Part shown: piece by piece, positions 316-10,927 of the stretch | Layout: each line of letters begins with the position of its first letter | How positions within the stretch are numbered: position 1 is the first letter of the stretch | Assembly (NCBI GenBank): GCA_030654635.1 | Contig: JAURXE010000184.1 | Location: 1-10,927, forward strand | Length of the DNA: 10,927 nt | Source of the DNA: Pseudomonas sp. | Lineage (GTDB): Bacteria; Pseudomonadota; Gammaproteobacteria; Pseudomonadales; Pseudomonadaceae | Reading direction: 5' to 3' | The notes under the pieces: generated by a model | Databases searched by the model: none | The model's input: only the letters and a program-made list of their open reading frames with translations | Told to the model about the DNA's origin: nothing | Position numbers and translations under genes: made by a program

Positions 316-2445
316 GTGGCAGTAGATCACACGCAAATGCTCGGTAACGTGCGCAGTAATCTTGCGGGGTTGCGCCAGGGCAATTTGGGCATTCCTCTGA
401 TGTTGCTGGTGATGCTCGGCATGGTCATGTTGCCGATCCCACCGTTCCTGCTCGACGTACTGTTCACCTTCAGTATCGCCCTGTCGATTGTGGTTCTGCT
501 GGTGGGTATTTACGCGTTGCGGCCCCTTGATTTTGCCGTATTTCCGACCATCTTGCTGGCGGCCACCTTGCTGCGTTTGGCGTTGAACGTGGCGTCCACT
601 CGGGTGGTTTTGCTGCATGGGCACGATGGCCATGAGGCCGCCGGTAAGGTGATTCAGGCCTTTGGTGAGGTGGTGATCGGCGGTAACTACGTGGTCGGTA
701 TCGTGGTTTTTGCGATCTTGATGATCATCAACTTCGTGGTGGTGACCAAGGGCGCCGGGCGTATCTCCGAGGTCAGCGCACGCTTTACCCTGGATGCCAT
801 GCCCGGCAAGCAAATGGCCATCGATGCCGACTTGAACGCCGGTTTGATCGAACAGGCAGAAGCCAAGAAGCGCCGCACCGAAGTTTCCCAAGAGGCCGAC
901 TTCTATGGCTCCATGGACGGTGCCAGTAAGTTCGTGCGCGGTGACGCGATCGCCGGTTTGCTGATCCTGTTTATCAACCTGATCGGCGGTATCGCCATCG
1001 GCATATTCCAGCATGATCTACCGTTTACTGAAGCCGCTAAGGTTTACACCCTGCTGACCATTGGTGATGGTTTGGTGGCGCAGATTCCGTCCCTGCTGCT
1101 GTCGACGGCGGCGGCGATCATGGTGACTCGGGTATCTAGCTCGGAAGCCATGGGCGAGCAAGTTCACCGGCAGATGTTTGCTTCGCCGCGTGCACTGGCG
1201 GTGGCCGCGGCCATCATGATTGCCATGGGGCTTGTGCCAGGCATGCCGCACTTCTCCTTCGTCAGTTTGGGATTGGCTGCGGCGGGCTGGGCTTACTGGA
1301 TCGCCAACAAGCAGCGACAGGTCAAGGAAGAGGCGGTGCACGAGGTGCAGCGCCAGCAAGAGGCCCTGCCGGCCGCGCGCTCCCAGGAAACCAAGGAGCT
1401 CGGCTGGGAAGACGTGACGCCGGTCGATATGGTGGGCCTGGAAGTGGGTTATCGGTTGATTCCGCTGGTCGATCGGGCCCAAGGTGGGCAGTTGCTGGCG
1501 CGGATCAAAGGCGTGCGCAAGAAGCTCTCGCAAGAGATGGGTTTTTTGATGCCTTCGGTGCATATCCGCGACAACCTCGACCTGCTGCCCAATGCCTATC
1601 GCTTGACCCTGATGGGCGTCAGCGTCGCCGAAGCGGAAGTCTATCCGGATCGCGAGCTGGCGATTAATCCGGGGCAGGTGTTCGGCCCGCTCAACGGCAT
1701 CGCCGCCAAGGACCCGGCGTTCGGCCTGGAGGCCGTGTGGATAGATCCGAACCAGCGCGACCAGGCGCAGTCGCTCGGCTATACCGTGGTGGACGCCAGC
1801 ACGGTGGTGGCGACTCACCTCAACCAGGTGCTGCACAAACATGCTCATGAACTGCTCGGCCACGAGGAAGTTCAGCAGTTGTTGCAGTTGCTGGCCAAAA
1901 GCTCGCCGAAGCTTGCCGAAGAGTTGGTGCCGGGTACGGTGTCCTTGTCGACCCTGCTCAAAGTGCTGCAGGCGTTGCTGCAAGAGCAGGTGCCGGTACG
2001 GGACATTCGCACCATCGCCGAAACCATCGCCAATGCCGCCACCAAGAGTCAAGATCCCGCCGCCATGGTGGCTGCGGTACGCGTGGCGCTGGCCCGCGCA
2101 ATCGTGCAAAGCGTGGTGGGACTAGAGCCGGAGCTGCCTGTAATCACCCTTGAGCCAAGGTTGGAACAGATATTGCTAAATAGTATTCAGAAGGCCGGGC
2201 AAGGCTCCGAAGAAGGCATTCTTTTGGAACCGGGCATGGCTGAGAAGTTACAACGTTCCTTGGTGGAAGCAGCGCAGCGTCAGGAGATGCTCGGCAAGCC
2301 GGCGATACTGCTGGTGGCCGGCCCGGTTCGGGCGATGCTCTCGCGGTTTGCGCGTCTGGCAGTGCCGAATATGCACGTGCTGGCCTACCAGGAAATCCCG
2401 GATAACAAGCAGGTCACTATCGTTGCGACGGTGGGGCAGAACTGA
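316..2445 (+). CDS. flhA: FlhA, flagellar type III export gate protein
   Basis: FlhA forms the nonameric inner-membrane gate of the flagellar export apparatus. It uses the proton gradient and docks chaperone-substrate complexes on its cytoplasmic ring. The 709 residues are about the normal family length. The N-terminal half (about residues 20-330) is strongly hydrophobic with several membrane helices. The FHIPEP signature lies at about residues 149-176 and includes ARFTLDAMPGKQMAIDADL. The segment SMDGASKFVRGDA (199-211) carries the conserved acidic residue D201, which I take to be the counterpart of the Asp implicated in proton use in Salmonella FlhA. The rest is the soluble FlhA-C domain. 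The start is GTG at 316, supported by TTGGAG at 303-308 with a 7-base spacer; GTG at 311 is out of frame. A sigma-54/FleQ promoter precedes it, and flhF follows after 11 bases, suggesting cotranscription. Confidence 0.97.
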   Translation: MAVDHTQMLGNVRSNLAGLRQGNLGIPLMLLVMLGMVMLPIPPFLLDVLFTFSIALSIVVLLVGIYALRPLDFAVFPTILLAATLLRLALNVASTRVVLLHGHDGHEAAGKVIQAFGEVVIGGNYVVGIVVFAILMIINFVVVTKGAGRISEVSARFTLDAMPGKQMAIDADLNAGLIEQAEAKKRRTEVSQEADFYGSMDGASKFVRGDAIAGLLILFINLIGGIAIGIFQHDLPFTEAAKVYTLLTIGDGLVAQIPSLLLSTAAAIMVTRVSSSEAMGEQVHRQMFASPRALAVAAAIMIAMGLVPGMPHFSFVSLGLAAAGWAYWIANKQRQVKEEAVHEVQRQQEALPAARSQETKELGWEDVTPVDMVGLEVGYRLIPLVDRAQGGQLLARIKGVRKKLSQEMGFLMPSVHIRDNLDLLPNAYRLTLMGVSVAEAEVYPDRELAINPGQVFGPLNGIAAKDPAFGLEAVWIDPNQRDQAQSLGYTVVDASTVVATHLNQVLHKHAHELLGHEEVQQLLQLLAKSSPKLAEELVPGTVSLSTLLKVLQALLQEQVPVRDIRTIAETIANAATKSQDPAAMVAAVRVALARAIVQSVVGLEPELPVITLEPRLEQILLNSIQKAGQGSEEGILLEPGMAEKLQRSLVEAAQRQEMLGKPAILLVAGPVRAMLSRFARLAVPNMHVLAYQEIPDNKQVTIVATVGQN

Positions 2446-2456
2446 GGTCTTAGGCC

Positions 2457-3767
2457 ATGCAAGTCAAACGCTTTTTCGCCGCCGATATGCGTCAAGCCAT
2501 GAAGCTGGTGCGTGATGAGTTGGGTGCTGACGCCTCGATCATTGCCAATCGCCGGGTTGCCGGCGGCGTCGAGCTGACGGCTGCCTTGGACTATCAGATT
2601 CCAGCCGCGCCAAACCGTCAGCCGAATGCCGAGCTAGAAAGCGAGCTGCGCAAAACCCAGGCTCGCATCACCTCGGCGCAAACCGAGCTGAGCACCCGGG
2701 CCAAAGCGGATGCTGGTAAAGATGGCCAGCTGTTTGCCGCGCCCGCCAAGGCCGCTGCTGAGCGTCCAGTCGCGCCAGCCCGGCAAGCCCCCCAGTCAGC
2801 TGCTGTCGCGTTGCCTGCGGGCGATCAGCAGATGCTGGCGGCCATGCGTTTTGAGTTGCACGGTTTGCGCGAGTTGATTGAGGTGCAGTTAGGCTCAATC
2901 GCCTGGGGTCAGTTGCAAACCCGCAAACCACAGCAAGCCAGTTTGTGGCGGCGTTTGCAGCGTATGGGTATCTCAGCTGAGCTAGCCCGCGCCTTGCTGG
3001 AAAAAGTGGCGACTATCACCGAACCCCGCCAGGCGTGGCGCATGTTGCTGGCGCACTTGGCCCACGCCATTGCGACAGTGCCCACCGAGCCACTGGAGGA
3101 GGGTGGGGTGATTGCCCTGGTCGGCCCGGCTGGGATGGGTAAAACCACCACGTTGGCCAAGATGGCGGCGCGTTACGTGCTTAAATACGGCGCGCAAAAC
3201 ATTGCGCTGGTGAGCATGGACAGCTACCGGATTGGCGCCCAGGAGCAGTTAAAAACCCTGGGGCGAATTCTCAATGTGTCGGTTACCCATGTCGATCCTG
3301 GACAGTCCCTGACCCAGGCGTTGGCCCCGTTGGCGCGGCGCAAAGTGGTGTTGATCGACACTGCGGGGCTGCCCGCCAGTGATCCGGCGCTGCGCATGCA
3401 GCTGGAAACCTTGGCGGGGCGCGGGGTAAAAGCGAAAAATTATTTGGTTTTGGCTGCAACCAGTCAGAGCCAAGTGCTCAAGGCCGCCTACCATAGTTAT
3501 AAGCATTGCGGTTTGGCAGGCTGTATTCTGACTAAGTTGGATGAAGCCACCAGCTTGGGTGAGGTTTTAGGGCTGGCCATAAGCCAGCGCCTGCCGGTAG
3601 CCTATGTGGCTGATGGTCCACGCATTCCTGACGACTTGCAGTTACCGCGCAGTCATCAGTTAGTGAGTCGGGCAGTCAGCCTGCAAGTACCAGAAGATCC
3701 GAGTGAAGAGGCTATGGCGGATATGTTCGCAGGCTTGTATCAGCAGACTTCGCGCCGGGTTGGTTAA
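2457..3767 (+). CDS. flhF: FlhF, SRP-type GTPase for polar flagellar placement
   Basis: FlhF is a signal-recognition-particle family GTPase that marks the cell pole and recruits the first flagellar parts there. The 436 residues show the family layout. There is a short conserved N-terminal part (MQVKRFFAADMRQAMKLVRD) and an Ala/Pro/Gln-rich linker to about residue 125. A helical N domain follows, then the G domain with P-loop GPAGMGKTTT (223-232), an SMDSYRIGAQEQL switch segment, DTAG (301-304), TKLD (359-362) and a closing ADGPRIPDDL motif. All nucleotide-binding motifs are intact. The start ATG at 2457 has GAGG at 2444-2447 (overlapping the flhA stop), 9 bases away. The next gene, fleN, encodes its usual functional partner. 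Confidence 0.96.
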   Translation: MQVKRFFAADMRQAMKLVRDELGADASIIANRRVAGGVELTAALDYQIPAAPNRQPNAELESELRKTQARITSAQTELSTRAKADAGKDGQLFAAPAKAAAERPVAPARQAPQSAAVALPAGDQQMLAAMRFELHGLRELIEVQLGSIAWGQLQTRKPQQASLWRRLQRMGISAELARALLEKVATITEPRQAWRMLLAHLAHAIATVPTEPLEEGGVIALVGPAGMGKTTTLAKMAARYVLKYGAQNIALVSMDSYRIGAQEQLKTLGRILNVSVTHVDPGQSLTQALAPLARRKVVLIDTAGLPASDPALRMQLETLAGRGVKAKNYLVLAATSQSQVLKAAYHSYKHCGLAGCILTKLDEATSLGEVLGLAISQRLPVAYVADGPRIPDDLQLPRSHQLVSRAVSLQVPEDPSEEAMADMFAGLYQQTSRRVG

Positions 3768-3867
3768 GTACGCGAAGCAACGAATTTTACACCCGCAGTA
3801 CCTTGTATCGTGTACAGCTAGTTCAGCTGAGCGATTCCAGTCCAAGCAGCACAAGGTGTTAAAGCGC

Positions 3868-4701
3868 ATGAGTAGTAAGCATCCCGTACAGGTGATTGCA
3901 GTGACCGGCGGCAAGGGCGGCGTTGGCAAGACTAATGTGTCGGTCAATTTGGCATTGGCGTTGGCTGACCTTGGTCGCCGCGTGCTGCTGATGGATGCCG
4001 ATCTTGGTTTGGCCAACGTTGACGTGCTGCTCGGTCTCACCGCCAAACGCACGCTGGAAGATGTGATTTCCGGCGAATGCGACTTGCGTGACGTCTTACT
4101 GCAAGGCCCTGGCGGTATTCGCATTGTGCCGGCGGCTTCCGGTGCGCAGAGCATGGTGCAACTGTCGCCGATGCAACACGCCGGTTTGATTCAAGCCTTC
4201 AGTGATATTAGCGACAACGTCGACGTGCTGATTATCGACACAGCCGCCGGTATTGGTGATGGCGTGGTGAGTTTTGTGCGCGCCGCCCAAGAGGTGATCA
4301 TGGTTGTGTGCGATGAACCTACCTCGATTACCGATGCTTATGCGCTGATTAAATTGCTCAATCGTGATTACGGTATGAGCCGTTTCCGGGTATTGGCCAA
4401 CATGGCGCACAGCCCGCAAGAAGGTCACAACCTGTTTGCCAAGTTGACTAAAGTGACCGATCGTTTTCTCGATGTGGCGCTGCAGTACCTCGGCGCCGTG
4501 CCGTACGACGAGTCGGTGCGCAAAGCGGTGCAAAAGCAGCGCGCCGTTTACGAAGCTTTTCCGCGTTCAAAGTGCGCATTGGCGTTTAAGGCCATTGCGC
4601 AAAAAGTCGATGCGTGGCCATTACCGGCTAACCCGCGTGGGCATCTGGAGTTTTTTGTCGAGCGCTTGGTGCAGAGTTCAACTGCAGACTCTAGCGTATG
4701 A
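3868..4701 (+). CDS. fleN: FleN (FlhG), MinD-like ATPase controlling flagellar number
   Basis: FleN is a ParA/MinD-family ATPase that keeps flagellar number at one per pole and, in P. aeruginosa, binds the activator FleQ and reduces its activity. The 277-residue protein has the deviant Walker A GGKGGVGKT at 14-22, MDADLG at 42-47, and a Walker B-like LIIDTAAGIGDGVVSFVR segment. It ends with the PLPANPRGHLEFFVERLVQ tail region seen in Pseudomonas FleN. I chose ATG 3868 because the peptide then begins MSSKHPVQVIAVTGGKGG, matching the family. An in-frame upstream ATG at 3703 would overlap flhF by 65 bases and add 55 unrelated residues. The ribosome site is modest (AAGG at 3853-3856, 11 bases away). 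The final codons overlap the fliA start (ATGA). Confidence 0.95.
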   Translation: MSSKHPVQVIAVTGGKGGVGKTNVSVNLALALADLGRRVLLMDADLGLANVDVLLGLTAKRTLEDVISGECDLRDVLLQGPGGIRIVPAASGAQSMVQLSPMQHAGLIQAFSDISDNVDVLIIDTAAGIGDGVVSFVRAAQEVIMVVCDEPTSITDAYALIKLLNRDYGMSRFRVLANMAHSPQEGHNLFAKLTKVTDRFLDVALQYLGAVPYDESVRKAVQKQRAVYEAFPRSKCALAFKAIAQKVDAWPLPANPRGHLEFFVERLVQSSTADSSV

Positions 4702-5929: not shown

Positions 5930-6718
5930 ATGGAGCATAAAGAGCCGCACATGACTGACCTAGAGTCGAGTCTGAAAACCCACGCCCGCTCTCTAATGGA
6001 AAGCCTCGAGCGCGGTAATTTTAGTGGTGCAATCGAAGTCATTCACGATCTAAACAAAGCCCGCGATCAAGGCCTCTATCACGAGGTGGGCAAGCTGACC
6101 CGCGAGCTGCATAACTCAATCGTTAATTTTCAAGTTGATCTCAGTGGCTCCCACGCGGCGGAAGTTTCTGAAATCAGTGATGCCAGTGAGCGTCTGAATT
6201 ATGTGGTGCGCATGACCGAGAAAGCGGCCAATCGCACCATGGATTTGGTCGAAGAAAGCGCACCACTGGTCAATGAAATTGGCTCTGAGTCGCGGGCCTT
6301 GAGTGCCGACTGGGCGCGTTTTATGCGCCGTGAAGTGGGGGCCGATGAGTTTCGTGAATTGGCTAAACGGATCGAGTCGTTCCTCGAGCAAAGTGATCGT
6401 GACAGCAGCAAATTGTCGGCTCATTTAAACGATATTTTGTTGGCGCAAGATTTCCAGGATCTTACCGGGCAGGTGATCAAGCGGGTCACCAGTATGGTGA
6501 CTGAGGTCGAGCAGAATCTGCTCAAATTGGTCTGCATGGCTTCACAGATTGATCGCTATACCGGCATTCAGCACAATCACGATGAGTTGCGTGCTGAACA
6601 AAAACAACAAAAAGAGCCATCCCGGGGTGAAGGTCCGCAGATTCATGCCGATAAGCGTGAAGACGTTGTATCGGGTCAAGTCGACGTCGACGATCTGTTG
6701 TCCAGCCTTGGTTTTTAG
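5930..6718 (+). CDS. cheZ: CheZ, CheY-phosphate phosphatase
   Basis: CheZ speeds removal of phosphate from CheY and so ends the tumble/reversal signal. The 262 residues are mainly helical, as expected for the long four-helix dimer. The catalytic segment reads LAQDFQDLTGQVIKR, in which D177 and Q181 correspond, by motif, to the E. coli Asp143/Gln147 pair. The C-terminus VDVDDLLSSLGF is the CheY-binding tail. Start ATG 5930 has GAGG at 5921-5924, 5 bases away, and yields MEHKEPHMTDLESSLKTHA, like other Pseudomonas CheZ. ATG 5951 is a possible shorter start, and the TTG at 5891 inside cheY is unlikely. The stop TAG (6716-6718) overlaps the ribosome site of cheA. Confidence 0.94.
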   Translation: MEHKEPHMTDLESSLKTHARSLMESLERGNFSGAIEVIHDLNKARDQGLYHEVGKLTRELHNSIVNFQVDLSGSHAAEVSEISDASERLNYVVRMTEKAANRTMDLVEESAPLVNEIGSESRALSADWARFMRREVGADEFRELAKRIESFLEQSDRDSSKLSAHLNDILLAQDFQDLTGQVIKRVTSMVTEVEQNLLKLVCMASQIDRYTGIQHNHDELRAEQKQQKEPSRGEGPQIHADKREDVVSGQVDVDDLLSSLGF

Positions 6719-9105: not shown

Positions 9106-10215
9106 ATGGCGGTTAAGGTCTTGGTGGTGGATGACTCGGGTTTCTTTCGCCGCCGCGTCTCGGAGATTCTTTCTGCTGACCCTAATATTCAAGTCATTGG
9201 TACGGCCACTAATGGTCGTGAGGCGATCGATCAGGCCATAGCGCTCAAGCCTGACGTGATCACTATGGATTACGAAATGCCGATGATGGATGGCATCACG
9301 GCCGTGCGTAACATCATGCAGCGCTGCCCAACGCCGGTATTGATGTTTTCCTCGCTGACCCATGAGGGCGCCCGCGTTACCTTGGATGCCCTGGACGCCG
9401 GGGCGGTGGATTTTCTGCCGAAAAATTTCGAAGATATTTCGCGTAACCCTGAAAAAGTTAAGCAGATGCTCTGCGAGAAAGTGCACAGCATTGCCCGCAG
9501 TAACCGTCGCTATGGCAGCTCTGCGCCCACTCCTGCAGTTACCCCGACGCCGTCTAGCAGTACCTACGTCAGCAGCAGTGCGAGTGCCTCGGTGCGCCCG
9601 GTATCGGCCGCGTCTACGAGCAGTTCTCACGCCTCGGCCGCGCCCAAACGCAAAGCTTATAAATTGGTCGCTATCGGCACTTCAACGGGTGGGCCAGTGG
9701 CGCTGCAGCGGGTCTTGACCCAGTTGCCAGCAAACTTTCCGGCGCCCATTGTGCTGATTCAGCATATGCCAGCAGCTTTCACTAAGGCCTTTGCCGAACG
9801 TTTGGACAAGCTATGCAGAATTTCTGTCAAGGAGGCTGAAGACGGTGATCTGCTGCGGCCGGGCTTGGCCTTGCTGGCCCCAGGCGGCAAGCAAATGATG
9901 GTCGATCAACGCGGCGCAGTAAAAATTTTACCGGGCGATGAACGCCTCAATTACAAGCCCTGTGTGGATATCACCTTTGGTTCGGCGGCTAAGTCATTCA
10001 ATGACAAGGTGCTGGCCGTGGTGCTTACTGGCATGGGCGCCGATGGCCGTGAAGGCGCGCGTTTGCTCAAGCAGTGCGGCAGCCAAATCTGGGCGCAAGA
10101 TGAGGCGAGCTGTGTGATTTATGGCATGCCAATGGCGGTGGTCAAAGCTGATCTGGCGGATGCTGTTTACAGTCTCGAGGATATCGGCAGGCATTTGGCT
10201 GAGGCCTGCATCTGA
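9106..10215 (+). CDS. cheB: CheB, receptor methylesterase / glutamine deamidase
   Basis: CheB removes methyl groups from chemoreceptors when phosphorylated by CheA, giving adaptation. Over 369 residues there is an N-terminal receiver domain (D9-D10, phospho-acceptor D55 in ITMDYEMP) and a Ser/Thr/Pro/Ala-rich linker of about residues 133-180. The esterase domain follows with the catalytic triad S193 (GTSTGGP), H220 (IQHMP) and D313 (TGMGADG). All key residues are present. Start ATG 9106 is preceded by TTAGGAG at 9094-9100, 5 bases away, and gives [16 protein letters not shown] at 9082 would put this ribosome site inside the gene and add unrelated residues. The stop TGA (10213-10215) overlaps the motC ATG by one base, implying coupled translation. 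Confidence 0.96.
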
Positions 10216-10871
10216 TGGATGTGCTGAGTCTTATTGGGATTATTTTGGCTTTTGTGGCCATTCTTGGCGGCAATTATTTGGAAGGCGGGCATGTCGGCGC
10301 TTTAGTGAATGGCCCGGCAGCGCTGATTGTGATTGGCGGAACCTTAGGTGCGGCTTTTTTGCAGGCGCCCGTGCATGTACTGAAACGTTCTGGGGTGGTC
10401 ATTCGTTGGATCTTCCTGCCGCCAAAAATTGATCTGCCCGGTGGTATTGCCCGTGTCGTCGGCTGGAGCATGACGGCTCGCAAAGAAGGCTTGCTGGGCC
10501 TGGAGTCGGTGGCTGATTTAGAACAGGATGATTACGCCCGCAAAGGGCTTCAGCTATTGGTCGACGGTGCCGAGCCAGAGGCCATTCGCAGTATTTTAGA
10601 GGTTGACCTGTACACTCAGGAGGGGCGCGACATTCAGGCCGCTAAGGTATTTGAGAGTATGGGTGGCTACGCGCCGACTATCGGTATTATCGGTGCGGTA
10701 ATGGGGTTGATTCACGTTATGGGCAATCTGGCAGACCCCAGCAAGCTTGGCAGCGGTATCGCAGTGGCGTTTGTGGCGACTATCTACGGTGTTGCTTTTG
10801 CCAACCTGTTATTGCTGCCGATAGCGAGCAAGATCAAGGCGGTGGCGCTGCGCCAATCACGCTATCGGTAA
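10215..10871 (+). CDS. motC: MotC (MotA-family stator subunit), cut short by an in-frame stop
   Basis: MotC pairs with MotD to form a proton-driven stator; in P. aeruginosa MotCD supports swarming and high-load rotation. The 218 residues before the stop include four membrane helices (about 4-20, 33-50, 154-172 and 180-203), the conserved cytoplasmic charges R89 and E97 (ARKEGLLGLE), and prolines P154 and P202, which match the functional prolines of MotA. The protein ends RQSRYR, followed by TAA at 10869-10871. The same frame continues at once with MLLEGILSIAEGENPRSIE, the conserved tail that normally follows an RE pair. The stop therefore appears to replace a Glu codon (GAA to TAA), removing roughly the last 28 residues. 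Start ATG 10215 overlaps the cheB stop. The truncated product may be unstable or inactive, or the base may be a sequencing error. Confidence 0.85.
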   Translation: MDVLSLIGIILAFVAILGGNYLEGGHVGALVNGPAALIVIGGTLGAAFLQAPVHVLKRSGVVIRWIFLPPKIDLPGGIARVVGWSMTARKEGLLGLESVADLEQDDYARKGLQLLVDGAEPEAIRSILEVDLYTQEGRDIQAAKVFESMGGYAPTIGIIGAVMGLIHVMGNLADPSKLGSGIAVAFVATIYGVAFANLLLLPIASKIKAVALRQSRYR

Positions 10872-10927
10872 ATGCTCTTGGAGGGCATTTTGTCCATTGC
10901 TGAAGGTGAGAACCCTCGTTCGATTGA
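10872..10927 (+). pseudogene. motC: Orphaned 3' part of motC after the premature stop (runs off the window)
   Basis: Directly after the TAA the same frame reads MLLEGILSIAEGENPRSIE up to the window edge. This is the conserved MotA-family tail (EG.L.I..G.NPR) that should be joined to MotC. It begins with ATG, but I see no ribosome site, and the piece would be too short to work alone. The true end of motC and the start of motD lie beyond the window. Confidence 0.75.

Follow-up and report, generated by a model that had tools for sequence, protein, structure and literature searches.

An in-frame stop codon near a contig end probably gives a false 3ʹ terminus to a Pseudomonas motC gene

The motC gene at the right edge of the Pseudomonas DNA analysed here carries an in-frame TAA codon (positions 10,869 to 10,871, + strand), which is probably the product of an assembly or sequencing error at a contig end in a fragmented Pseudomonas bin, and not a feature of real biology. 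The window (the whole stretch of DNA that was analysed) is an entire contig, C785, of 10,927 bases, and 56 bases lie between the TAA and the contig end. The genome to which it belongs comprises 3.11 Mb in 791 contigs and is 91.34% complete and 4.49% contaminated, and from these figures we infer that it is a metagenome bin. An error at the contig end is the best explanation because the stop is positioned at the edge, a near-identical protein carries the missing tail, no decay is seen, and a second stop is present near the edge of another contig. In this explanation, the assembler would have kept a wrong base near the contig end, perhaps because the edges of contigs were covered thinly or by a mixture of strains. 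The organism then probably makes an ordinary MotC protein of about 246 amino acids, which would pair with MotD to form the second flagellar stator.

Direct reading of positions 10,860 to 10,886 gives CGC TAT CGG TAA ATG CTC TTG GAG GGC, with the TAA in frame with the motC ATG at position 10,215. The open reading frame (ORF) as given (positions 10,215 to 10,871, + strand) encodes 218 amino acids of a MotA-family stator protein of the MotC type. It scores 353.3 bits against the NCBIfam profile NF006583 (‘flagellar motor protein’), for which the cut-off is 237, and aligns with profile positions 1 to 218 of 246; Pfam matches to MotA_ExbB and MotA_N also were found. The window gene resembles the Pseudomonas MotC family (NCBIfam NF006583/PRK09109; Pfam PF01618 and PF20560) in its score above the cut-off, in sharing 217 of 218 residues with a 246-residue protein, and in being adjacent to cheB. 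However, it lacks the full length of about 246 amino acids with the conserved C-terminal tail, ending instead at residue 218 of 246, and the contig stops short of the 3ʹ end of the gene and of motD.

The TAA removes residues 219 to 246 (28 residues) from MotC. Beyond it the frame remains open for 18 codons and 2 bases, where it is cut by the contig end (positions 10,872 to 10,927, + strand). All 18 of the residues encoded there are unchanged relative to residues 220 to 237 of the near-identical protein, P0001, and this remainder of the tail is undecayed. An earlier note, made from the sequence alone, had placed a stop in the motC frame, named the gene, described the frame as otherwise unbroken to the window edge, and estimated a loss of about 28 tail residues, and each of these statements agrees with the direct reading, the ORF list and the profile score. 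The distance of 56 bases between the stop and the contig end had not been mentioned there.

A glutamate codon had been expected in place of the TAA, and comparison with related genes bears this out. We aligned 109 MotC loci (29 fetched and 80 kept of 570 found, possibly with one species in both sets), leaving out the window’s own copies. Glutamate, specified by either of its codons, occupies the stop column in 109/109 of these loci, whose proteins are 246 amino acids long in 107 cases and 247 and 248 in one case each. A cruder + strand count likewise gives glutamate in 85 of the 85 relatives covered, the window’s own two copies apart. Most of the closest motC relatives carry the title Pseudomonas, and some carry only that of Gammaproteobacteria. 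Among the 120 proteins listed of 8000 scored, residue 219 is glutamate in 119, and the remaining one (P0074, 248 amino acids) has the same RYRE motif shifted two residues later. The other 119 are all 246 amino acids long, even though shorter proteins were eligible. The column also holds glutamate in four of four solved MotA sequences with printed alignments, two of which are apparently one protein in different constructs. The earlier note had allowed that homologues might usually terminate here, an idea that we rejected since all 109 aligned loci continue past the column. No second witness of the stop was found, as neither the 109 aligned loci nor the 120 listed proteins include one that ends here.

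The protein that bears most directly on the missing tail is P0001, which is 246 amino acids long, has the whole tail, and equals the window MotC at 217 of 218 residues. It is recorded from three contigs, the longest of which spans 6,257 bases, and so it was not read from the window contig. The degree of identity suggests that P0001 comes from the same species as the window organism. The sole difference between the two proteins within residues 1 to 218 is at residue 194, which is alanine in the window MotC (positions 10,794 to 10,796, + strand). All 34 of the nearest proteins have glycine at this position. The codon is near the contig end, with 131 bases following it, and the alanine is a hint of a second edge error, but only a hint because alanine occurs in 35 of 119 homologues overall.

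The gene order of the window, all on the + strand, is the end of flhB, flhA, flhF, fleN, fliA, cheY, cheZ, cheA, cheB and motC, where the left-edge gene looks like flhB from its sequence. These names were assigned from translations and gene order, with NCBIfam support for cheB and motC; the NCBIfam matches of CheA fall below their cut-offs. Besides motC, eight flagellar and chemotaxis genes were examined in the window, and all eight are whole. The second stator that the earlier note had supposed does exist, as a complete motA and motB pair that encodes intact MotA (283 amino acids) and MotB (350 amino acids) on contig C745 of the same bin (positions 2303 to 4212, − strand; L184). No decay was evident among the 18 post-stop residues and the eight other window genes, an observation with which a recent mutation is also compatible. 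Motility loss across the bin as a whole was considered and set aside, there being no sign of it in the eight neighbouring genes or in MotA and MotB.

The rest of motC together with motD might have resided on another contig of the bin, but none was found with three queries. The last 300 bases of the window match nothing in the bin except themselves, MotD has no close match (the best is 40% identity over query residues 132 to 235, on another contig), and a ParA-like query for the next gene reaches at best 39% identity. In 102 of 109 relatives, no more than 60 nt separate the motC stop from a MotD-like start, according to a rough scan in which a few picks look wrong.

Errors at contig edges are a familiar defect of draft metagenome assemblies. 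We sampled 60 whole contigs of the bin (C785 included) and 20 contig starts, of 791 contigs in total. To this sample we aligned the open frames found in 1.6 Mb of G014, a relative whose genome is a single contig. A contig end was counted as testable if it had aligned codons within 100 nt, which gave 18 ends. In-frame stops in conserved genes occur at two of these 18 ends, or in 2 of the 594 codons that lie no more than 100 nt from an end. One is the TAA of the window, and the other resides in a gene resembling PEP synthase on contig C145, where a TAG at positions 65 to 67 is in frame 64 nt from the contig start (L169). The frame that it interrupts is 94.6% identical to that of the relative and matches a PEP-utilising enzyme in Pfam. 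We take the gene to be PEP synthase, and its stop appears to be a contig-end defect of the kind proposed for motC.

Farther from the ends, three stops were encountered among 20,691 aligned codons, and all three were set aside after inspection. Two of them are upstream of the start of motC itself, within an over-long reference frame, and the third is just before the start of a frame that we presume, from its appearance, to be EtfB-like. With the interior counted as 0 and the window’s stop left out (1 versus 0), Fisher’s test gives p = 0.028; with the window’s stop included, p = 0.0008, a value to be read in the knowledge that this stop was the reason for selecting the window. The test is small, and it leans towards errors at contig edges. 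The two stops resemble the known edge errors of draft assemblies in their distances from contig ends (56 and 64 bases), but differ in that this bin has no general rise of mismatches at its ends. Residues differ from the relative at 17.1, 14.6 and 20.0% in the intervals 0–30, 30–60 and 60–90 nt from an end, compared with 18.7% at 300–1000 nt and 20.8% beyond (60 contigs, with 13 of 120 ends aligned), and contig ends are therefore not generally noisy. A frameshift-like junction, recognised as two alignments of one reference protein, was also observed on contig C385 near position 6653, 1,420 nt inside that contig (L175).

The main alternative, which we consider unlikely, is that the TAA is a true nonsense allele of recent origin that the population carries either in fixed form or as a segregating variant, and that yields MotC without its last 28 residues. 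Such an allele would probably inactivate MotCD and leave the cell dependent on MotAB. The base is present in the sequence as given, and the whole MotA and MotB encoded in the bin would make the loss of one stator tolerable. The predicted model discussed below also locates the stop within one helix and ahead of another. In Vibrio PomA, motility was abolished by truncating the helical motif at the C terminus (PMC10374538), and a spontaneous 53-residue C-terminal truncation of MotA is described for C. jejuni (PMC3928116). In opposition to this allele are the absence of the stop from all 109 loci and all 120 listed proteins, the tail of the near-identical protein, and the undamaged condition of eight neighbouring motility genes and of motA and motB; moreover, the distance of 56 bases from the contig edge would have to be a coincidence. 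A more specific proposal, which we regard as doubtful, is that a nonsense allele of motC has recently deprived a natural Pseudomonas population of its swarming stator, before any decay of the tail and with MotAB and the other flagellar and chemotaxis genes seen here retained, in a shift to a single stator. Still another possibility is that the stop is real but is usefully read through, or that the shortened MotC continues to work. The tail sequence beyond the stop is intact, but an intact tail is equally expected from an error or a very recent mutation, and none of the 109 loci or 120 listed proteins ends at this site; we regard such an arrangement as highly improbable.

A contig-end error, which we consider the probable origin, fits the location of the TAA at the edge of an entire contig in a 791-contig genome, the continuation of P0001 into a complete tail, the 18 unchanged residues past the stop, and the occurrence of an edge stop in an unrelated central metabolic gene. 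However, the excess of end stops is weak with a single case besides that of the window, the three interior stops were discounted only after they had been seen, mismatches do not increase towards contig ends, and the frameshift-like case is 1,420 nt inside a contig. In addition, genes of the motA family do gain real truncations, as PMC3928116 reports for C. jejuni motA. The reading given in the earlier note therefore stands with respect to the anatomy of the gene, the glutamate column and the existence of MotAB, whereas the true loss of the tail, and hence an effect on swarming or on the coupling with motD, is not established. Sequencing error, which had been named there as an alternative, is the better explanation in view of the edge position, the tail-bearing near-identical MotC and the second edge stop.

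If the stop were real, its structural effect can be estimated from a prediction made for P0001 with 21 sequences (mean pLDDT 76.3; 86–95 in the tail blocks), in which helices span residues 175 to 229 and 234 to 245. A stop at residue 219 would shorten the first of these, a long continuation of the fourth membrane span, and the last short helix would be lost altogether. For PomA of Vibrio alginolyticus, PMC10374538 locates R232 of helix H4 on the surface that binds the torque helix of FliG and reports that the R232A change impairs motility, and that motility is abolished when the C-terminal helical motif is truncated. Residues 1 to 245 of P0001 align with PomA residues 1 to 242, and from this range the counterpart of R232 is probably R235, which belongs to the lost MotC tail.

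At the level of the cell, a true stop could leave swimming in place through the whole MotA and MotB of the bin, and it would add a modest case of stator loss in nature. Such a loss is of some interest because deletion of MotCD abolishes swarming in P. aeruginosa (PMC11005332). The case serves mainly as a caution: in a fragmented genome bin, a stop codon that lies some 60 bases or less from the edge of a contig should not be taken to mean that the gene has been lost. A known parallel is in C. jejuni 81-176, where, according to PMC3928116, a spontaneous 53-residue C-terminal truncation of MotA by a change in a G tract was present in 9 of 18 variants and was revertible. The likeness is that a stator protein of the MotA family is shortened at its C terminus; the difference is that a G-tract change produced it there, whereas the present case is one stop at one contig edge with no second witness. 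Interactions of MotC with FlgZ and SadC, as part of c-di-GMP signalling, also have been reported (PMC12288467).
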